The notes under the pieces are model-generated. The model worked only from the letters and a program-made list of their open reading frames with translations. It had not been told where the DNA came from and did no database searches. From the NCBI GenBank assembly GCA_029556915.1, contig JAKQIT010000060.1, positions 1-64,000 of the forward strand: a stretch of 64,000 nt of DNA, given 5' to 3'. Both the position numbers and the translations under genes were made by a program. Numbering within the stretch: position 1 is the stretch's first letter; the number at the start of each line of letters is the position of its first letter. Source of the stretch: Pseudomonadota bacterium. GTDB taxonomy: Bacteria; Pseudomonadota; Gammaproteobacteria; Burkholderiales; Methylophilaceae. Shown one piece after another: positions 13,607-33,311 of this stretch.

Positions 13607-15895
13607 TTATTTAGTGCCATTGCTTGCTGCTGCACCTTTTGCACGGTTAATACGCACAACGTTAGGAATTTTGCGAATGGTACGCATTAAGTCAGCTAAA
13701 TGCACGCGATCGCGCACTTGAACCGTAAAGTTCACGCCAGTGTATAGGCTGTTATCGGCTTCTTCCATACTGACATTATCAATATTTGATCCTGTATCAG
13801 CAATGACCGAAGCAATCATCGCCAACATCCCCGGTTTATTTTCCACAACCATTTTTAGATTAACCTTGAACAACCGCTTGTTGTCCGAATCCCACTCAAC
13901 ATCGAGCCATTTTTCAGGGTCTAGGCGGAACTTGCCGATAGCTGGACAATCATGCGTATGAATAATCAAGCCTTTATCTTTATTGATAAATCCTAAAATA
14001 GGGTCTCCAGGAATAGGACGACAACACGCTGCAAATTGTACGTTCATGCCTTCAGAACCACGAATTGTGATGGTATCTAACGGTTTTTTACTGGATTTTC
14101 CAAAAATTTTGCCAAATAAATTGTTGCTAAATAATTTACTCACTACGTTTCCAGCATCTGGATTAACAGCACTACTATCTGTAGCTAATAGCTGATGCGC
14201 CACCATGACGCTTTGACGTTTGCCCAAACCAATATCCGCCAGAATTTCTTGTTTGCTTTTAACGCCATAATCGCTAATCAATTTTGCCCACTGTTTTTCG
14301 TAAATATCTTCTGGCTCTACACGCATCGCTCGCAATGCTTGATTTAACATACGCTCTCCAATATACTTGGGCTCTTCAGACTGAATTGTTTTTAAATAAT
14401 GGCGAATATGCGAGCGCGCTTTGCCTGTTTTAACGTAATTAAGCCATGCAGCATTGGGCTTAGAAAGCGCAGCCGTAATAATTTCAACGTGATCCCCATT
14501 ATTAAGCTCTGTACGTAGTGGGGCTAGTTCTTGATTTATTTTTACCGCCACACAGCAGTTACCCACATCTGTATGCACGGCATAGGCAAAGTCCACCGCT
14601 GTAGAACCACGTGGTAAAGCTAAAATATTGCCTTTTGGCGTAAATACATAAACTTCATCAGGAAATAAATCCACCTTAATGTGCTCTAAAAACTCCAGCG
14701 AATCTACGCTTTCCGTTTGAATTTCTAACAAGCGTTGTAACCATTGGTGCGTTTGCTGTTGTAGGGCAGTCAATTCAGCATCGCTAGATTTATATAGCCA
14801 ATGTGCCGCAACGCCAGCATTCGCCACGTTGTGCATATCAATACTGCGAATTTGCACTTCTATTGGCGTACCAAAAGGTCCAAACAGCGTGGTGTGTAGC
14901 GATTGATAGCCATTGGCTTTAGGAATGGCAATGTAATCTTTAAATTTACCAGGAATAGGCTTGTAAAGACTGTGTAGGGTACCTAATGCTAGATAGCATG
15001 TAGGCAAGTCTTTTACTACGATGCGAAAACCGTAAATATCATAAATTTGCGAAAAAGCATTCGTTTTTCCTGCCATTTTTTTATAAATGCTGTATAGGTG
15101 CTTTTCACGCCCAGTCACTTCCGCTTCTATGTGAGCTTCTTTTAGCTTTGCTTCAATACTCTCTAAAATTTTGCTAATTACCTCTTTACGGTTACCTCGT
15201 GCCGATTTAATGACTTTGGTCAGCACGCGGTAGCGCATGGGGTAAATCGCTTTAAAGCTTAAGTCTTCTAACTCTTGATAGATGAGATTTAAACCTAGCC
15301 GATTTGCAATTGGCGCGTAAATATCTAATGTCTCTTTAGCTATGCGTCTGCGTTTTTCTGGCTTCATTGCATCTAGTGTTTGCATGTTATGCAATCTATC
15401 AGCCAGTTTTACCAAAATAACCCGCACATCTTGGCTCATCGCCAATAACATTTTTCTAAAATTTTCCGCTTGAGCCTGGCTGGCACTTTGAAACTCGATT
15501 TTATCGAGCTTAGTCACTCCGTCCACCAAGTCAGCCACTTGCGCGCCAAATTTTTCTTTTACCTCCGCTGATGAAATATCAGTATCTTCTACCACATCGT
15601 GTAATAAGGCTGCTAGCAAAGTTGGCACGTCCATGTGTAGATCAGCCAAAATACACGCAACAGAAACAGGATGGGTAATGTAAGGCTCACCTGTTTTACG
15701 GGTAACACCATCGTGCGCAGTAAAGGCAAAACGATACGCCTCCCACACGAGCGCTACGTCTTCTGGTTTAAGGTAATGCTTAATGCGTAAAGTTAAGGCT
15801 GAATCTTCACTGTCTGCAGGCAGCAAAGGTGATGCCCCGAGCATTAGGCTAGGGGTTGATGACTCCGCTGGTTTAGATGTTGCGGTTTTTGGCAT
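13607..15895 (-). CDS. spoT: Bifunctional (p)ppGpp synthase/hydrolase (Rel/SpoT)
   Basis: Makes and degrades the stringent alarmone (p)ppGpp. The 762-residue protein has an N-terminal hydrolase domain with intact HD motif (H75, HD 99-100, ED 103-104), a synthase domain (about 250-370) with YDIYGFRIVV, YQSLHTT and EVQIR, a TGS domain (about 405-465), a conserved-Cys region (AACCRPIPGD) and a C-terminal ACT domain (about 685-755). Both activities look intact. It follows rpoZ on the same strand, the usual proteobacterial order. I saw no second RSH gene in this window. Confidence 0.96.
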   Translation of the reverse strand: MPKTATSKPAESSTPSLMLGASPLLPADSEDSALTLRIKHYLKPEDVALVWEAYRFAFTAHDGVTRKTGEPYITHPVSVACILADLHMDVPTLLAALLHDVVEDTDISSAEVKEKFGAQVADLVDGVTKLDKIEFQSASQAQAENFRKMLLAMSQDVRVILVKLADRLHNMQTLDAMKPEKRRRIAKETLDIYAPIANRLGLNLIYQELEDLSFKAIYPMRYRVLTKVIKSARGNRKEVISKILESIEAKLKEAHIEAEVTGREKHLYSIYKKMAGKTNAFSQIYDIYGFRIVVKDLPTCYLALGTLHSLYKPIPGKFKDYIAIPKANGYQSLHTTLFGPFGTPIEVQIRSIDMHNVANAGVAAHWLYKSSDAELTALQQQTHQWLQRLLEIQTESVDSLEFLEHIKVDLFPDEVYVFTPKGNILALPRGSTAVDFAYAVHTDVGNCCVAVKINQELAPLRTELNNGDHVEIITAALSKPNAAWLNYVKTGKARSHIRHYLKTIQSEEPKYIGERMLNQALRAMRVEPEDIYEKQWAKLISDYGVKSKQEILADIGLGKRQSVMVAHQLLATDSSAVNPDAGNVVSKLFSNNLFGKIFGKSSKKPLDTITIRGSEGMNVQFAACCRPIPGDPILGFINKDKGLIIHTHDCPAIGKFRLDPEKWLDVEWDSDNKRLFKVNLKMVVENKPGMLAMIASVIADTGSNIDNVSMEEADNSLYTGVNFTVQVRDRVHLADLMRTIRKIPNVVRINRAKGAAASNGTK

Positions 15896-15945: not shown

Positions 15946-16158
15946 TTAGCTGCGCACGCGATTTAAAATCTCTACACCAACCTTGCCAGCAGCAATTTCG
16001 CGCAGTGCCAACACAGTAGGCTTATCTTTTTGTCCAACGCCATGTACAAAAGGGTCTGAGCCATTTGCTAGTTGGCGTGCGCGCAATGCCGCCACTAAGG
16101 TTAATTGAAAGCGATTAGGGATTTTCTCCAAGCAATCATCTACAGTAATACGTGCCAT
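15946..16158 (-). CDS. rpoZ: RNA polymerase omega subunit
   Basis: Omega chaperones the beta' subunit and forms one of the ppGpp binding sites of RNA polymerase. The 70-residue product begins with the diagnostic [19 protein letters not shown] and carries the [10 protein letters not shown] helix. It lies between gmk (15 bp) and spoT (50 bp) as in most proteobacteria. Confidence 0.97.
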
Positions 16159-16173
16159 ATTATTTCCTTTGAA

Positions 16174-16794
16174 TTATGTGAGTGTTTTAACAAGGTCTGC
16201 GTAGCGTGCTAGCTGCACAGTACCTTTGAGTCGTTGTGCGCGAATAATTGCACTGATGTCTTGCAAAGCCACATCAAAATCATCGTTGATTGTAACATAA
16301 TCAAACTCAGCTACGTGGCGCATTTCTTCCCGCGCTGCAGCCACGCGTTTTGCAATAACATCACTGCTATCTTGACCACGTCCGTTTAATCTGCGCTCCA
16401 AAGCTTCAATTGAAGGGGGAAGAATAAAAATGCTCACTGCCTGTGGATACAAACGGCGCACTTGCTCTGCCCCTTGCCAGTCTATTTCTAGCACTAAATC
16501 AAAACCAGCCTGTAAAGGTGCTTCTAATGCAGCATGCGATGTACCATAACGCGCCTCGTGTACCAGCGCACTTTCTAAAAATTTTGCCTCACCAAGCATG
16601 CTTAAAAAAGTTGCATCATCAACAAAGTGATAATCTACGCCATCCACCTCACTCGGGCGCGGTTTACGCGTTGTGTGCGAAATAGAGAGCTTAAGCTGCG
16701 CATCTTTTGCAAGTAATGCTTTAATTAAGCTGGTTTTGCCTGCGCCAGAGGCCGCGGTGATAATAAATAAATTACCTGTAGTCTTCATCATCAT
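16174..16794 (-). CDS. gmk: Guanylate kinase
   Basis: Phosphorylates GMP to GDP. The P-loop AASGAGKTSL is near residue 15, followed by the GMP-binding region SISHTTRKPRPSEVDGVDYHF and the lid with GRGQDSSDVIAKR. About 206 residues. Three ATGs in a row follow the stop of the Anbu gene; the first (16792-16794) overlaps that stop by one base (TAATG), a layout typical of translational coupling. The further upstream TTG is rejected. This joins the gmk-rpoZ-spoT-recG set to the Anbu operon. Confidence 0.95.
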   Translation of the reverse strand: MMMKTTGNLFIITAASGAGKTSLIKALLAKDAQLKLSISHTTRKPRPSEVDGVDYHFVDDATFLSMLGEAKFLESALVHEARYGTSHAALEAPLQAGFDLVLEIDWQGAEQVRRLYPQAVSIFILPPSIEALERRLNGRGQDSSDVIAKRVAAAREEMRHVAEFDYVTINDDFDVALQDISAIIRAQRLKGTVQLARYADLVKTLT

Positions 16795-17528
16795 TAACAC
16801 CAATCTGGGCTTGGCAGTGCAGAAAAAACTTTTTTAAGGCCGTCACCCCAGCCTTGTCTGATTTGCGCAAAATAGGGGTCGTTTTCAGCAATACGTTCTT
16901 TGCAGTTAGCATGTAAGCTGTCGGTGCGATAGAGCAAGATATCAATCGGCGCTGCTACAGATACATTACTACGAATTGTCGAATCAAACGAAATTAATAG
17001 GCACTTTACAGCATCCATCATTTCAGTGTGGTGCTTGACTACACGATCAATAATGGGTTTGCCATATTTAGTTTCGCCAATCTGAAAATAGGGTGTTTCA
17101 GCACAGGTCTCGATGAAGTTACCCGCCGCATAAACATTGAACAGTCTTGGCTTTTCGCCTTTGATTTGCCCACCGAGCAAAATACTCGCATTAAAATCAA
17201 TACTATGGTTTTTTAATGCTTTTGCATCACGCTCAAAAGAGGCACGTAATGCCTCGCCAACCAAACCTGCTGCATCGAACATGCTGTCTACATTATGTAA
17301 GTGCTTAGCGCCTTTTTTAGGCTTATTAATTGAAGCTTTTAGATGACTCACTACAGATTGCGTGATAGCTAAATTGCCAGCCGTTAACAGCACGATTACA
17401 CGGTCATTTTCTACCTCAAACACATGCATTTTAGGTGAAGTTGCCACTTGGTCAACGCCCGCATTGGTGCGCGTGTCAGATGCAAACACCAAACCTTGCT
17501 CTAGCAGTAATCCTACACAATACGTCAT
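16794..17528 (-). CDS. Anbu (bacterial proteasome-like) peptidase
   Basis: Ntn-hydrolase of the Anbu family (ancestral beta subunit, COG3484), related to HslV and 20S proteasome beta subunits and known to form helical or ring-like oligomers. After removal of Met the sequence starts with the nucleophile Thr (TYCVGLLL); the catalytic Asp and Lys are seen as D18 and K33 in ASDTRTNAG and TSPKM. About 244 residues, the family norm. It is the last of a four-gene set with transglutaminase, alpha-E and circularly permuted ATP-grasp proteins, the classic Anbu cluster. No regulatory ATPase is encoded. Substrates are unknown. Confidence 0.93.
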   Translation of the reverse strand: MTYCVGLLLEQGLVFASDTRTNAGVDQVATSPKMHVFEVENDRVIVLLTAGNLAITQSVVSHLKASINKPKKGAKHLHNVDSMFDAAGLVGEALRASFERDAKALKNHSIDFNASILLGGQIKGEKPRLFNVYAAGNFIETCAETPYFQIGETKYGKPIIDRVVKHHTEMMDAVKCLLISFDSTIRSNVSVAAPIDILLYRTDSLHANCKERIAENDPYFAQIRQGWGDGLKKVFSALPSPDWC

Positions 17529-17570: not shown

Positions 17571-18437
17571 TTATTGCTGGGCTTGCTGAGCTTGTTTTGC
17601 CTGATACTCTAATGCCGCCACATTCATGCGATGTTGTGCATTCAAAGGCATGCCGGCTTGGTTCACAATCACGCTGCTTGCCATACCTTCCACTCCACCG
17701 CCAGCGCGCATTCCACCTACTGGGCTAGCACTGCGGTAATCCAAACCGGTGGCTAAACGTACATGCGTTTCGCCTGCGCGGCATCCATTTGAAACGTCAT
17801 AACTTTGCCAACCACCGTTGGTTAAATGTACATCTGCCCAAGCATGGGTTTGCATCAAACTGCCATCTTCAGTAAACAAATAACCGCTCACATATCTAGC
17901 TGGCAACCCAATGCTGCGGCAACAAGCAATAAATATATGGGCATGATCTTGGCAAACGCCTTGTCCTAACTCAAATGCTTCAATTGCTGTTGTGCTAACT
18001 TGCGTAGCACCTTTAATGTATTGCACCCTCTTCAACAAGGCGTGCATCATATCTTCTAATGCTGCCATTTGCGCATACACATCGGTGATATAAGTTGATG
18101 CAAATTCGCGCATATTTTGGTTGCTTATGGTCAGTGGGGTTTCACGCATGTAAATATCCAGCGGCAGATTTTGATGCTGTGCGACTACCTCAACGCCTGT
18201 TTCTACCTCGCCTATTGCCACTATTAAAATTTCCTGATGTGGCTTATCAACCACCAAAGTGTGTGTGTTGTTCCCGTAAGCATCTACTGTTGAATAAAGC
18301 TCACCATTCACTTTGATTTCCCAACGCTTAACGTGTTGTCCAAAACCGTTTTGCGGTGTTAATCGTAATTGCTGTATGGTGTAATTCACATATTCGCTAT
18401 AAACATAACGCGTGTGGTGTTCAATGTTAAGCAGCAT
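17571..18437 (-). CDS. Transglutaminase-like cysteine protease family protein
   Basis: 288-residue protein with an N-terminal bacterial transglutaminase-associated domain (about 1-85) and a papain-fold transglutaminase core with intact triad C162 (GQGVCQDHAH), H198 (THAWADVH) and D214 (YDVSNG). Members may hydrolyse or form amide bonds; the reaction here is not known. The C-terminus is rich in Gln (AKQAQQAQQ), unusual but present in some relatives. It lies 2 bp after the alpha-E gene and 42 bp before Anbu. No signal peptide, so it is cytoplasmic. Confidence 0.9.
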   Translation of the reverse strand: MLLNIEHHTRYVYSEYVNYTIQQLRLTPQNGFGQHVKRWEIKVNGELYSTVDAYGNNTHTLVVDKPHQEILIVAIGEVETGVEVVAQHQNLPLDIYMRETPLTISNQNMREFASTYITDVYAQMAALEDMMHALLKRVQYIKGATQVSTTAIEAFELGQGVCQDHAHIFIACCRSIGLPARYVSGYLFTEDGSLMQTHAWADVHLTNGGWQSYDVSNGCRAGETHVRLATGLDYRSASPVGGMRAGGGVEGMASSVIVNQAGMPLNAQHRMNVAALEYQAKQAQQAQQ

Positions 18438-18439
18438 GG

Positions 18440-19402
18440 TTAAGCCGTCACAATACTAAAAAAGGTTTTGTGCACTTCTGCGCCTAATTTATTGTTGGAT
18501 TCCACAAAATCACTTAAAAACTCATGCAAACCACGCTGAAAAATATCCTGCATTTTGCCAAAGCGTAGTTTGGAGTGTAACTCTCCCGCCAAGCGCTTAC
18601 ATTCGGTATGTCGCGACCCTGAAAGTAGTTCTAAAATAGGCGTAATTTCATCAAAACAAGCATGCAACGAACGTGGCATATCGCGCCTCAATACCAGCAG
18701 CTCAGCTACGCGCCATGGTTCAATCGTATCGCTATAGATTTTTTGATAGGCTTGAAATGCAGATACTGAGCGCAATACCGCACTCCATTCGTAATAATCC
18801 ACGGCACCACCCACTTCTTCTTGCTCTGGTAATAGCAGATGATATTTAACATCAAGCAAACGTGCCGTGTTATCAGCACGTTCAATAAAAGTGCCTAAAC
18901 GCACAAAATTAAACGCATCATCTCGCAACATGGTGCCAAAGCATACACCCCTAAATAAGTGTGAGCGCGCTTTAACCCAATCACAAAATTCACGCAGGCC
19001 ACTTTGCGCTAAATCTTGTTTAACAAATTGTCCGAATTCCAGCCAAAGCGCGTTGATATTTTCCCAAGTTTCTGTGGTCATCGCTACCCGCACGGCATGG
19101 GCATTTTCTCTTGCACTACGCAATGCACAATAAATACTGGATGGATTATTCATGTCCAACGCCAGATAATGAATGACATTAGCTGCCGTATATTCCACGC
19201 CATTTTCAGTGCTGTAAGAATTCTCAAAGGCCTCTACGTTGCCTGAGATTTCTAATGCGGGTAACCAAAGTGCAGCCTCACTTTCTGCTGCATTAGGCAC
19301 TAAGGACATGTTATAAGTCACATCTAGCACACGTGCCATGTTTTCTGCACGCTCAATATAGCGTGCCATCCAGTAGAGGTGGTCTGCCGTTCGACTTAAC
19401 AT
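18440..19402 (-). CDS. Alpha-E domain protein
   Basis: 320-residue, mostly helical protein of the alpha-E (DUF403) family, starting MLSRTADHLYWMARYIERAEN and containing the second family block RLGTFIERADNTARLLDVKY. No enzymatic activity is established for the family; it is nearly always encoded between a circularly permuted ATP-grasp and a transglutaminase gene, as here. Its start overlaps the end of the ATP-grasp gene by 7 bp, so the proteins are likely made together and probably form a complex (inference). Confidence 0.92.
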   Translation of the reverse strand: MLSRTADHLYWMARYIERAENMARVLDVTYNMSLVPNAAESEAALWLPALEISGNVEAFENSYSTENGVEYTAANVIHYLALDMNNPSSIYCALRSARENAHAVRVAMTTETWENINALWLEFGQFVKQDLAQSGLREFCDWVKARSHLFRGVCFGTMLRDDAFNFVRLGTFIERADNTARLLDVKYHLLLPEQEEVGGAVDYYEWSAVLRSVSAFQAYQKIYSDTIEPWRVAELLVLRRDMPRSLHACFDEITPILELLSGSRHTECKRLAGELHSKLRFGKMQDIFQRGLHEFLSDFVESNNKLGAEVHKTFFSIVTA

Positions 19403-20892
19403 ATGGCCTCCTCTAGTTTGCTGACTTTTGCTTTTGTTGTCACTTTTTCTTCTAACTCATCTTCGAGCACCCAAGTATCTTTGGTGCCACCCCCTTGTGA
19501 AGAATTGACCACTAGCGAGCCTTCTTTCATTGCCACGCGGCAAAGCGCACCTGGCACTAATGTAACCGTTTTGCCCGACAGCACAAATGGGCGCAAATCA
19601 ACATGGCGTGGCGCAATTCCCGCTTCTACTAACGTAGGGCAAGTTGACAGCGCCAAGGTCGGTTGGGCAATATAATTAGCTGGGCTCGATACTATGCGAA
19701 TACGAAACTCGTCTAGCTCTTGCTTACTTGCAGCAGGCCCGACCAACATACCATAACCACCTGAGCCTTGTACTTCTTTTACGACTAATTCATCTAAATG
19801 CGCTAAGGTGTAGGCCAAATCCTCCTCTTTGCTAAGTTCATACGTAGGCACATTTTCCAATATTGGTGTTTCGCCTAAATAAAATTGAATCATGGCTGGC
19901 ACATGAATATAAGTCGCTTTATCATCTGCCACACCTGTACCCACGGCATTGGCTAAGGTCACGCCACCGTTGCGATACACCGAGAGCAAACCTGGCACCC
20001 CCAACATTGAGTTTGCGTTAAATACCAGCGGGTCTAAATAATCATCATCTATGCGTCGATAAATCACATCTACTCGCTGCGGGCCAAGCGTGGAGCGCAT
20101 ATAAACTGCATTGTTGCGCACAAACAAATCTTGACCTTCTACCAGTTCCACGCCCATTTGCTGCGCCAAAAATGCATGCTCAAAATATGCGCTGTTATAG
20201 GCACCAGGCGAGAGCACCACCACGGTTGGGTCTTGTATGCCTGTTTGTGCCACCGCACGTAAATTTTTAAGCAACATTTGCGGATAGTGATCTACTGGTG
20301 CGATGGCATAACGGCGGAATAAATCTGGAAATAAGCGCATCATCATTTTGCGGTCTTCCAGCATATAAGACACGCCTGACGGTGTGCGCAAATTATCTTC
20401 CAGCACGTAAAATTGTGACTCGCTGGTACGCACCAAATCAATGCCGGCAATATGTGCATACACTTGCTGCGGCACATCCACGCCAAACATTTCTGGGCGA
20501 TATTGCGCATTGGTTAAAATATTTGCGGGTACGATTCCGGCTTTAATGATTTCTTGCTGGTGGTAAATATCATGCAAAAACATATTGAGCGCACGCACGC
20601 GCTGAATGGCACCTGCGGATAAATGCGCCCATTCTTTTGCGGCCAAAATACGTGGCACCACATCAAACGGAATAAGTCGCTCAGCGCCGTCATCATCGCC
20701 ATACACATTAAAGGTAATGCCCACGCGCCGAAATAATACCTCCGCCTCTTGGCGCTTGCTGTCGAGTAAATCATGTGGAATTCGGCTCAACCATTGCTGA
20801 TAAGCACTATAAATTTCGCGCACGTTGAGCATATTGGCATTTTCAACGTTGAGTTGCATTTCATCAAAAAATGTGGGGGCAGATTTTTGCAT
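19396..20892 (-). CDS. Circularly permuted ATP-grasp protein, type 2
   Basis: 498-residue protein of the CP-ATP-grasp type 2 family (DUF404/DUF407), predicted carboxylate-amine or peptide ligase. Recognisable blocks are RPEMFGVDVP, LEDNLRTPSGVSYMLEDR, VVLSPGAYNSAYFEH, the YRRIDDDYLDPL segment and KEVQGSGGYGMLVGP. It begins the Anbu operon, followed by alpha-E, transglutaminase and Anbu. Upstream lie a sigma-54-type promoter (20926-20941) and an NtrC-type palindrome (21000-21018), so nitrogen control is predicted. The Shine-Dalgarno sequence is weak (AGAAAGA). Confidence 0.92.
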   Translation of the reverse strand: MQKSAPTFFDEMQLNVENANMLNVREIYSAYQQWLSRIPHDLLDSKRQEAEVLFRRVGITFNVYGDDDGAERLIPFDVVPRILAAKEWAHLSAGAIQRVRALNMFLHDIYHQQEIIKAGIVPANILTNAQYRPEMFGVDVPQQVYAHIAGIDLVRTSESQFYVLEDNLRTPSGVSYMLEDRKMMMRLFPDLFRRYAIAPVDHYPQMLLKNLRAVAQTGIQDPTVVVLSPGAYNSAYFEHAFLAQQMGVELVEGQDLFVRNNAVYMRSTLGPQRVDVIYRRIDDDYLDPLVFNANSMLGVPGLLSVYRNGGVTLANAVGTGVADDKATYIHVPAMIQFYLGETPILENVPTYELSKEEDLAYTLAHLDELVVKEVQGSGGYGMLVGPAASKQELDEFRIRIVSSPANYIAQPTLALSTCPTLVEAGIAPRHVDLRPFVLSGKTVTLVPGALCRVAMKEGSLVVNSSQGGGTKDTWVLEDELEEKVTTKAKVSKLEEAIC

Positions 20893-20925
20893 GGCATCAG
20901 TCTTTCTATAATGTGTTTAGACTTA

Positions 20926-20941
20926 AGCAAAGCGTATGCCA
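20926..20941 (-). promoter_or_regulatory. Sigma-54 promoter of the Anbu operon
   Basis: The minus strand reads TGGCATACGCTTTGCT, compared with the sigma-54 consensus TGGCAC-N5-TTGCW. The invariant GG (20939-20940) and GC (20927-20928) are exactly 10 bp apart. Predicted transcription start is near 20914, about 22 bp before the ATP-grasp ATG. No good sigma-70 promoter was seen in the same place. Confidence 0.72.
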
Positions 20942-20999
20942 TATAATTATGTATTTATAATCATATAGTTACAAATAATCTTTGTAAGATAGCTACTTT

Positions 21000-21018
21000 T
21001 TGCACCAATTGGGTGCAA
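21000..21018. promoter_or_regulatory. NtrC-type enhancer site
   Basis: A perfect dyad TTGCACCAATTGGGTGCAA, i.e. TGCACC-N5-GGTGCA, the consensus for NtrC (GlnG) binding. Its centre is about 95 bp upstream of the predicted sigma-54 start, a normal enhancer distance. A less perfect copy may lie at about 21046-21060. Confidence 0.7.
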
Positions 21019-21134: not shown

Positions 21135-21185
21135 CCGAGAGAAAATGACGCCTCTGGAAGCCGCATAGATACTGGCTTGCAGAGG
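21135..21185 (+). repeat. Dispersed hairpin repeat, copy 5
   Basis: CCGAGAGA lead, arm CCTCTGGAAGCC, loop GCATAGATACT (one change from the usual GCATGGATACT), arm GGCTTGCAGAGG. Lies just after the yicC stop codon. Confidence 0.8.
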
Positions 21186-21231
21186 CATAACAAGGAAGAT
21201 AGCTATTTAGAGCGTATTTTTAGATGAAAAG

Positions 21232-22098
21232 TTATTCAATATTTTGAATTTGCTCACGCATTTGTTCTATCAGCACTTTAAGCTCCATCGACACTTGTGT
21301 GGTATCCACCGAAACCGATTTTGAGCCTAAAGTATTGGCTTCACGATTTAGCTCTTGCATTAAAAAATCCAAGCGTTTACCTGCTGGTGCATCGCTATTC
21401 AAAATGCGTTTTACTTCAGACACATGCGCAGTTAAACGACCCAATTCTTCATCTACATCAATGCGTTGCGCGAATAAAACCAACTCTTGGGCAATGCGTT
21501 CTTGATCAATCGTTTTAAGATTTTCTTGCAGTTTAGCTTCCAGTTTGGCCTGATATTCTTTGGCTAGTGCTGGCAATAGTGGCTTCACTTTCGCTACCAA
21601 TCTTTCAATTTGGCTGATTCTATCTAGAATAATAGCCTTGAGTTTTTCACCTTCGCGCTGGCGCGATGCGTTTAAATCTTGCAAACTTTGTTGCACTAGT
21701 GCTTTAACCGCTTCAGCTAGCGCTTCTGCATTTGGTGTATCACCCACCACCACGCCTGGCCAACGCAAAATATCAGCCACACTTAAGGTGCGACTTTGCG
21801 GAAAATGCGCCTGCACTTGTGTTTGCATTTGTTGCAGTTGCCCAATCAGCGCATCATCTAACTGCACAGCTTGTTTGGCTTGGCTGTGCGCCATTAGACT
21901 CATTTTGCATTCCACTTTGCCACGGTTTAATTGCGCAGCTATCATCTCTCGAATGTGCGATTCAAAGCCGCGTATTTGGTCATCAAGCTTAAAGTTAAGA
22001 TCTAAATAACGGCTATTCACCGCACGAATTTCTATTAATAAAGTGGCGTTTTCTATCGCTTGCTCACGTGCGGCAAAACCAGTCATGCTGTAGGTCAT
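21232..22098 (-). CDS. YicC family endoribonuclease
   Basis: Widely conserved YicC/YloC protein; E. coli YicC has been reported to be an endoribonuclease involved in sRNA turnover. The 288-residue protein starts with the family signature MTYSMTGFA, has EIRAVNSRYLD (about 26-36), an E-rich helical middle, and the C-terminal DUF1732 block RLDFLMQELNREANTLGSKS. It diverges from the Ser/Thr kinase gene. Its linkage to rph and gmk is common in bacteria. Confidence 0.93.
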   Translation of the reverse strand: MTYSMTGFAAREQAIENATLLIEIRAVNSRYLDLNFKLDDQIRGFESHIREMIAAQLNRGKVECKMSLMAHSQAKQAVQLDDALIGQLQQMQTQVQAHFPQSRTLSVADILRWPGVVVGDTPNAEALAEAVKALVQQSLQDLNASRQREGEKLKAIILDRISQIERLVAKVKPLLPALAKEYQAKLEAKLQENLKTIDQERIAQELVLFAQRIDVDEELGRLTAHVSEVKRILNSDAPAGKRLDFLMQELNREANTLGSKSVSVDTTQVSMELKVLIEQMREQIQNIE

Positions 22099-32125: not shown

Positions 32126-33031
32126 TCATTCTTTTCGATGTGACTCAGCAATATCTTGATCTAAAAATCGACCATCGGCACTCATAATAGCCACCATTTG
32201 CGCATTTGGTAATAACTCGGCTTGCTCAATATTGTTGTTCCCATTATCGTCGCTTGCAACATGAAACAGGACGATGTGACGTGCGTACTTTTTAGCTGGA
32301 TTGATGACTTTGCTGACAGAAGTAGGCGCTTGCGATATCGCAACCTTAGAACGGGTGGTACTGTTTGCGGCATCGTGACCAAATCCGAAAACTAATAGCA
32401 AATCACAACGACTTAGCTCCAAGTCACCGCTTACAACGTTAAGAAATGCTACATCAGTGGACGAGATTGCCGTTCCATCCAATTTGTCAGTGATTGTAGT
32501 ACCATTGATTTGACATGGCGTACCGTTATTTAGCATCTCAGATGCCACCACGAATTTCGTCACAGTGCTAACCAGTGTTGCACTTACATCCACCCCCACA
32601 GAGCCCTCATTGTGCTGAAGATTCGGAACCACATACTGAGTTTTGCTGGCGTTGCTACGTATTTGTAGCATATCAACTCCAACGCTAGCAAGGGCAACAT
32701 CAAGCCTGTCGCGAAAATCTCCAGACGTTACCGTAACTGGGATGTTGATTTCCGACAGGTGTGAATAAGTGCTGGTATCCACAAAAGCAAGCGATGCGCC
32801 AGTATCGGTTACCAGATGATCCCATTTGTTTGGGTATTTAGCTGTAAACGAACGATAGCTACGAATCGCTCGATATGCCGAATTGGTATTGCTTACCGAT
32901 GCCGTCGCTTGCGAGGTATCTACAACACTTTCATAAGTTGCAAGCGCTCCAACAGACAATGCGGATAGAATGAATATTACCGACACTATTTCTAATAAGG
33001 TAAAACCGTTTTTATATTTTCTGGTTTTCAT
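32126..33031 (-). CDS. Orphan type IV pilin-like/pseudopilin protein
   Basis: 301-residue protein with a prepilin peptidase leader: MKTRKYKNG cut before FTLLEIVSVIFILSALSVGAL, with Glu at mature position 5. The rest (about 40-301) is a Ser/Thr/Val-rich exported domain with two Cys pairs at most and no match I recognise. It is longer than the usual major pilins (about 150 residues). A strong GGAGG site precedes the ATG. No pilus assembly genes are nearby; it lies between algR-like and hemC, which are usually adjacent in related clusters. Could be a minor pilin or a type II secretion pseudopilin. Confidence 0.8.
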   Translation of the reverse strand: MKTRKYKNGFTLLEIVSVIFILSALSVGALATYESVVDTSQATASVSNTNSAYRAIRSYRSFTAKYPNKWDHLVTDTGASLAFVDTSTYSHLSEINIPVTVTSGDFRDRLDVALASVGVDMLQIRSNASKTQYVVPNLQHNEGSVGVDVSATLVSTVTKFVVASEMLNNGTPCQINGTTITDKLDGTAISSTDVAFLNVVSGDLELSRCDLLLVFGFGHDAANSTTRSKVAISQAPTSVSKVINPAKKYARHIVLFHVASDDNGNNNIEQAELLPNAQMVAIMSADGRFLDQDIAESHRKE

Positions 33032-33311
33032 ACCCTTCCTCCCAAGGAGTGCATCAGAGATAAATAAATCTGTTTTTTTATCAGATACACCAGATTCTTT
33101 GCTTTATTTTATTTAACGTTACTGCAACTCTCGTGCCAACATTAAGTAATGAAAGTAACTTATTGAGTCAACTGGTTATACGAAAAAATTTCAGCTTAAA
33201 ATTGGTTGCTAACAAACAAATTTTGGTGGTTGTTTATAAACAATGGGCTAAAATTATCCACTTAAGAAAATTCTGAACAAGGCCTTAAGACGCTTGTGAT
33301 AAAATCCCGCT

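Follow-up and report, generated by a model that had tools for sequence, protein, structure and literature searches.

The window analysed here is a stretch of 64 kb, whose positions are used as coordinates throughout, from the 3.28-Mb assembly of a methylotrophic Methylophilaceae bacterium. Its minus strand carries, in this order, yicC, a gap of 339 bp, genes for an ATP-grasp, an Alpha-E, a transglutaminase-like and an Anbu protein, and then gmk, rpoZ and a spoT-like gene. The four-gene Anbu cluster proposed in an earlier note on this DNA was confirmed by Pfam. The first gene of the operon (19396..20892) encodes a circularly permuted ATP-grasp protein with matches to PF14403 (540 bits) and PF04174 (512 bits) and with a solved relative, 3n6x, and is followed by that of the Alpha-E protein (18440..19402; PF04168, 345 bits). 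The transglutaminase-like protein (17571..18437; PF08379 and PF01841) was aligned to its solved relative 3isr, and the family's Cys, His and Asp, presumed here to be catalytic, fell into line. Anbu (16794..17528; PF00227), a proteasome beta-like protein, has Thr1, Asp17 and Lys32, as judged from the translation and from alignment to the solved Anbu proteins 5loy and 5nyw; Thr1, Asp17 and Lys32/33 are its candidate catalytic residues in the available text of PMC6376114. The Anbu operons of P. aeruginosa, Y. bercovieri and Hyphomicrobium, as far as their published descriptions were available, share the four genes, their order and the three residues; the comparison covers genes and residues.

The upstream neighbour yicC occupies 21232..22098 (PF03755 and PF08340). 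Immediately behind the Anbu operon lies the gmk-rpoZ-spoT row, which the earlier note had overlooked. The guanylate kinase gene gmk (16174..16794; PF00625) gave a single match in this genome and is the only copy found; its ATG overlaps the anbu stop codon by one base (TAATG). The open frame at 15946..16158 we take, from its sequence and synteny, to be rpoZ, encoding the omega subunit of RNA polymerase. The open frame at 13607..15895, which follows gmk and rpoZ in the relatives too, presumably encodes, by its sequence, a relA/spoT-type ppGpp synthetase/hydrolase.

The gap between yicC and the ATP-grasp gene contains both a sigma-54 core and an NtrC site. The core promoter TGGCATACGCTTTGCT (20926..20941, minus strand) has its -24 GG and -12 GC exactly 10 bp apart, just as had been described, and it matches TGGCAYGNNNNTTGCW, which we take to be the sigma-54 consensus, at 11 of the 12 specified positions, a recount that replaces the earlier score of 10 out of 11. 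When the predicted +1 is placed twelve bases 3' of the -12 GC, transcription would start at about 20915 and leave a leader of 23 nt to the ATP-grasp ATG at 20892. The predicted NtrC binding site TTGCACCAATTGGGTGCAA (21000..21018, assigned to neither strand) is centred at about -94, close to the 95 bp upstream of the predicted start first proposed. Its 7-bp arms, TTGCACC and GGTGCAA, form a perfect inverted repeat and its 5-bp centre, AATTG, is not palindromic, so that only the arms deserve the term perfect palindrome. The half-site pair at 21001-21017, at enhancer distance upstream, has zero mismatches to TGCACC-N5-GGTGCA, presumably the NtrC consensus, and the identity with that consensus put forward before thus holds for the half-sites. 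A sigma-54 core of the form GGcacg-N4-ttGC is given in the part of PMC5491218 that was available.

The 19-mer TTGCACCAATTGGGTGCAA occurs once in the genome. The pattern TGCACYN5RGTGCA was found without mismatches at two places in the 3.28 Mb, namely upstream of the Anbu operon and upstream of amtB, and with at most one mismatch at 29 places, while reversing the pattern as a control gave 13. The window contains two matches to TGCACCN5GGTGCA at up to two mismatches, which is less than the 3.7 expected, and only the pair at 21001-21017 is perfect. The core pattern TGGCAYN5TTGCW was found three times versus 0.58 expected, a number reached in 2 of 100 shuffles. A core by itself is weak evidence for that reason, and pairing and conservation decide whether the promoter element is real. 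Another perfect core, TGGCACGAGAGTTGCA, lies at 33123-33138 on the minus strand, some 90 bp before a 301-aa gene (32126-33031) that is presumably pilin-like by its N-terminal GFTLLE motif. Upstream sigma-54 cores are also typical of PilR-controlled pilin genes.

A dispersed hairpin repeat, GCCTCTG-N2-AGCC...GGCTT-N-CAGAGGC, was observed at six places in the window (21150, 25978, 32009, 36538, 45619 and 61337; none in shuffles) and at 233 places genome-wide (none for the reversed control), and looks like a REP-type element. One copy (21150-21186; fold z -6.5) is located between yicC and the NtrC site. It was considered as a conserved terminator after yicC and rejected, being one of the 233 places of the repeat; a hairpin scan of the relatives' intergenic regions revealed no common counterpart.

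The genome encodes the regulators that such a promoter would use. The DNA-binding domain Sigma54_DBD gave one match (222 bits), to rpoN, and the NtrC model TIGR01818 gave two matches over the curated cut-off, each beside a gene for an NtrB-like kinase; another five or six enhancer-binding proteins that resemble NtrC all scored below it. The two ntrB-ntrC pairs, on contigs C82 and C103 of the window's genome, G000 (L180 and L181), are closely similar, and each has a related 2OG-oxygenase-like gene near by. They are either paralogues or the result of a mixed assembly, and as assembly contamination is listed as 5.65%, one pair may be foreign. The gene presumed from its sequence to be amtB is preceded by NtrC-like sites at -140, -127 and -110 and by a sigma-54 core at -41, counted from the first listed start, and thus has the same kind of promoter as the Anbu operon within one genome.

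Conservation was examined in two samples, the best 80 of 588 relatives and 150 genomes of the family, 88 of which had an ATP-grasp match. The 163 loci with such a match were reduced to 156 with a complete upstream region of 250 bp (L012, L021, L041 and L100 had less than 60 bp; L008, L048 and L061 less than 250 bp), and to 139 non-redundant ones after near-copies and a duplicate of the window had been taken out. A core was counted when it was found within 150 bp with at most two mismatches and a fixed GG; 60 dinucleotide shuffles and 395 control regions, each the 250 bp in front of another gene from these loci, were scored by the same rule. The relaxation of the filter to GG alone was adopted after the data had been seen, and shuffles and controls were scored alike. 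The absence of the sites upstream of orthologues, which the earlier note had named as the observation that would speak against it, was not what was seen: a core was present in 127 of the 139 regions (shuffles on average 3.3, at most 11; controls 9/395). NtrC sites with up to one mismatch were found in 32 regions (shuffles 0.45; controls 3/395) and with up to two in 78 (shuffles about 6; controls 17/395), while both elements, with at most two mismatches each and 40-200 bp apart, occurred together in 62 (shuffles 0.05; controls 3/395). At this threshold no core was found in 12 of the 139 (L027, L044, L045, L049, L050, L052, L054, L064, L077, L078, L160 and L163). Among 40 distant members of the class, picked from the upper part of the match list with second hits and some rows of the same family skipped, 17 had the core (1.2 expected) and six both elements (0.09 expected). 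The arrangement is widespread and not universal.

The distance between the two elements is conserved as well. Of 71 regions from Methylophilaceae, with distances taken from the core, 51 had an NtrC-like site (9 or more of 12 positions) at 74-80 bp, whereas the count in each of the remaining 7-bp bands from 46 to 192 was 0 to 10. In the clade of the window, all 29 loci that were in the non-redundant set, out of 38 named clade loci, had an NtrC-like site 76-79 bp from the core; ties were resolved here in favour of 77, a rule that helps the reported value and that was not used for the 51 of 71. The other Methylophilaceae had a core in 35 of 37 regions and an NtrC-like site in 31, of which 16 were at 77-79 bp, again with ties broken towards 77. 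No fixed spacing is seen outside the family, where 8 of 56 regions have the site in the 74-80 bp band. Of 68 loci that have an Anbu gene, 62 have the core; so do 37 of 43 loci in whose examined stretch no Anbu gene was found, and all 28 whose downstream sequence was too short to judge. As it also precedes clusters in which Anbu was not found, the promoter appears to go with the ATP-grasp/Alpha-E pair and not with Anbu as such.

Many Oxalobacteraceae (L013, L015, L016, L018, L020, L022-L026 and others) have TGGCACGTTTCTTGATA as the core before their ATP-grasp gene. A strict GG-N10-GC filter had wrongly implied that the promoter is missing in many of them, until 14 sequences showed TGGCACGTTTCTTGATA-like cores. 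The -12 GC of sigma-54 cores is nearly invariant; its replacement by GA in 20 and by GT in five of the 127 cores is unusual and lineage-specific. In Oxalobacteraceae with a TGGCACGTTTCTTGATA-type core, an NtrC-like site is often just some 24 bp upstream. Many genomes of the family (G008, G021, G027, G075 and others) contain an additional, distant ATP-grasp match (31-36% identity). It belongs to a long open frame of about 850 codons, which gives the impression of a fusion with another domain.

Regulation of such clusters by NtrC and sigma-54 is not new in kind. In B. cenocepacia H111, genes I35_5080-83 encode ATP-grasp, Alpha-E, transglutaminase-like and large transglutaminase-like proteins; their expression fell in an ntrC mutant by log2 values of 8.2, 9.4, 9.4 and 6.0, and they were named a common sigma-54/NtrC target (available part of PMC5491218). 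The first genes are the same as those of the window operon, whereas Anbu is not among the four genes named there; the comparison covers genes and regulation. P. putida PP_2685-2688 (Anbu, transglutaminase, Alpha-E, ATP-grasp) were reported to be induced by nitrogen limitation, as is proposed for the window operon, and were assigned to NtrB/NtrC. In the wild type, PP_2686-2688 rose 11- to 15-fold and PP_2685, the Anbu gene, changed just 1.1-fold; in the rpoN mutant PP_2686-2688 still rose 14- to 20-fold, and the urt genes likewise still rose (PMC7801951, in the part available; column order of wild type, relA/spoT and rpoN as in its Table 1). The persistence in the rpoN mutant argues against an absolute need for sigma-54 in that strain, which is from a different class-level lineage than the organism of the window. 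The nitrogen link of Anbu is also cited in two Anbu structure papers (PMC5666114, PMC6376114; parts available). The literature searched, largely outside subscription journals, yielded no recognisable description of this promoter in Methylophilaceae, and no papers on Anbu, its ATP-grasp protein or the operon from 2018 on.

These data make it very likely that the Anbu operon is under NtrC/sigma-54 control, as had been proposed; conservation, spacing, the comparison with amtB and the published expression data from other Proteobacteria support this strongly. The element is very probably a working NtrC-activated sigma-54 promoter, and because induction persisted in the rpoN mutant of P. putida, the grading of this claim was kept at that level. 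We infer NtrC binding and a nitrogen response in this organism along the following lines. Under nitrogen limitation, NtrB would phosphorylate NtrC, and NtrC-phosphate would bind the predicted site at about -94. By looping of the DNA it could then contact sigma-54 RNA polymerase held at -24/-12 and open the promoter, upon which the ATP-grasp/Alpha-E/transglutaminase/Anbu operon would be induced together with amtB.

Chance matches, for which one could cite the three cores in a window expected to hold 0.58, are so improbable as to be negligible; shuffles, control genes, the fixed spacing and the genome-wide counts rule out such an origin of the two motifs. It is unlikely, at somewhat shorter odds, that promoter and site are real and that a different or additional enhancer-binding protein acts on them, the signal then not being nitrogen, or not nitrogen only. 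The genome does encode the five or six further NtrC-like proteins, and the upstream site degenerates in close sister species (three mismatches, e.g. L084-L090) while the core is kept. Most known NtrC promoters have two strong sites for co-operative binding, which is usual and not strict. The Anbu operon promoter has one perfect site, the second-best within 250 bp upstream (L082) having three mismatches, which if anything speaks against the main reading. On the other side, the half-sites equal the NtrC consensus, the sole other perfect pair in the genome precedes amtB, and the related Burkholderia cluster was published as NtrC dependent (PMC5491218, available part).

A sigma-70 promoter, or read-through from yicC, might instead drive the operon and leave the sigma-54 element as a relic or in a minor role. 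Sigma-70-like pairs matching 9 of 12 positions lie at 20988-20960 and 20974-20946, but such pairs occur at chance frequency (14 found, 13.2 expected). Anbu was remarked to be constitutively expressed in moderate amounts (PMC5666114), and induction in the P. putida rpoN mutant (PMC7801951; both sources in part) points the same way. A relic would not have kept a constant distance between its elements in all 29 clade members, and this explanation is considered quite improbable.

A search for gmk in 19 relatives placed yicC before it in 17, with a gap of up to 57 bp in 13, of 84 and 114 bp in two, and of 0.8 and 1.1 kb in two; in the examined stretch of L194 and L197 yicC was not found. On this ground yicC-gmk-rpoZ-spoT is taken to be the common, ancestral arrangement. 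The two large gaps (L200 and L204) hold other insertions at the same place. In the window and its relatives, the Anbu operon with its promoter is positioned between yicC and gmk. In a phylogeny of 90 ATP-grasp proteins, 82 of them different, the 37 yicC-adjacent rows fall in one supported group of 41 (99/87), and adjacency to yicC needs five changes as labelled. Of the four rows of the group without yicC, L085, L088 and L100 have gmk downstream (L211, L214 and L226), so that L083 remains. The simplest reading is one insertion of the operon between yicC and gmk. As relatives with the operon elsewhere also carry the promoter, it looks older than the insertion. After anbu, gmk was found in 33 genomes: 24 of 29 loci, seven of the eight L112-L119 (the sequence of L119 ends early), L002 and the window. 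No gmk was found within 5.5 kb after anbu in L209, L213, L228 and L232, and L236 is outside the supported group. The new observation is that, in one clade of Methylophilaceae, operon and promoter lie within the ancestral yicC-gmk-rpoZ-spoT row.

The arrangement raises the possibility, put forward tentatively, that in this clade nitrogen starvation raises gmk, omega and the ppGpp synthetase/hydrolase directly through the inserted NtrC/sigma-54 promoter. Such read-through is supported by the overlap or short gap, the common strand and the retention of the arrangement in 33 genomes. In E. coli, NtrC/sigma-54 activates relA and so wires nitrogen stress into ppGpp metabolism; there the target is relA, whereas putative read-through of the inserted operon would reach the spoT-like gene. 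In the same E. coli study, polymerase at spoT fell upon nitrogen starvation, which counts against read-through (available part of PMC4066584). In P. putida the link between nitrogen and ppGpp may even run the opposite way, because the operon genes were higher without relA/spoT; a gmk-rpoZ-spoT link is not reported in the available part of that study (PMC7801951).

It is rather more probable than not that NtrC/sigma-54 control stops at anbu, with a promoter for gmk-rpoZ-spoT in or just after that gene and ppGpp metabolism unaffected, a view that rivals the read-through extension and not the NtrC/sigma-54 promoter itself. Being single copy and presumably essential, gmk must be transcribed with ample nitrogen too. 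Five close relatives have an anbu-gmk gap of 63-85 bp with a weak hairpin and a T-rich tail, and the hairpins of four of these five folded at -5.0 to -5.6 kcal/mol. In anbu itself there is a sigma-70-like pair of 10/12 at 17455-17428, although such pairs are at chance frequency (14 vs 13.2). Against separate transcription, the overlap of the gmk ATG with the anbu stop in the window and ATGA overlaps in several relatives suggest one message. Read-through and a separate gmk promoter may both be partly true.

As to function, ATP-grasp proteins make amide bonds, and folds of the hydrolase type are found in both Anbu and the transglutaminase-like protein. With much less certainty than for the regulation, these enzymes, an amide ligase and two hydrolase-type proteins, may remodel proteins or peptides and in this way regain or redistribute nitrogen in starvation, a role that fits induction under starvation better than storage would. 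In published assays Anbu showed no detected peptidase activity and the ATP-grasp protein freed phosphate from ATP (PMC6376114, available part). The earlier interpretation accordingly stands for its regulatory half, while its peptide or isopeptide synthesis or breakdown system is a suggestion about function, since regulation tells when the operon is used and not what it makes or cuts.

In conclusion, the conserved promoter says when to look for the biochemical role of Anbu operons, namely in nitrogen starvation, when NtrC is active. Conserved across many Betaproteobacteria, this promoter extends, by footprinting, the results from Burkholderia and Pseudomonas, and ntrC, rpoN or the -12 GC offers a simple handle on the function of the operon. 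If read-through into gmk-rpoZ-spoT is real, this Methylophilaceae clade would be a clear example of how an operon, once inserted, can rewire the stringent response, and the coupling of nitrogen and stringent responses would have arisen here independently, made by insertion, in parallel to NtrC-relA in E. coli.
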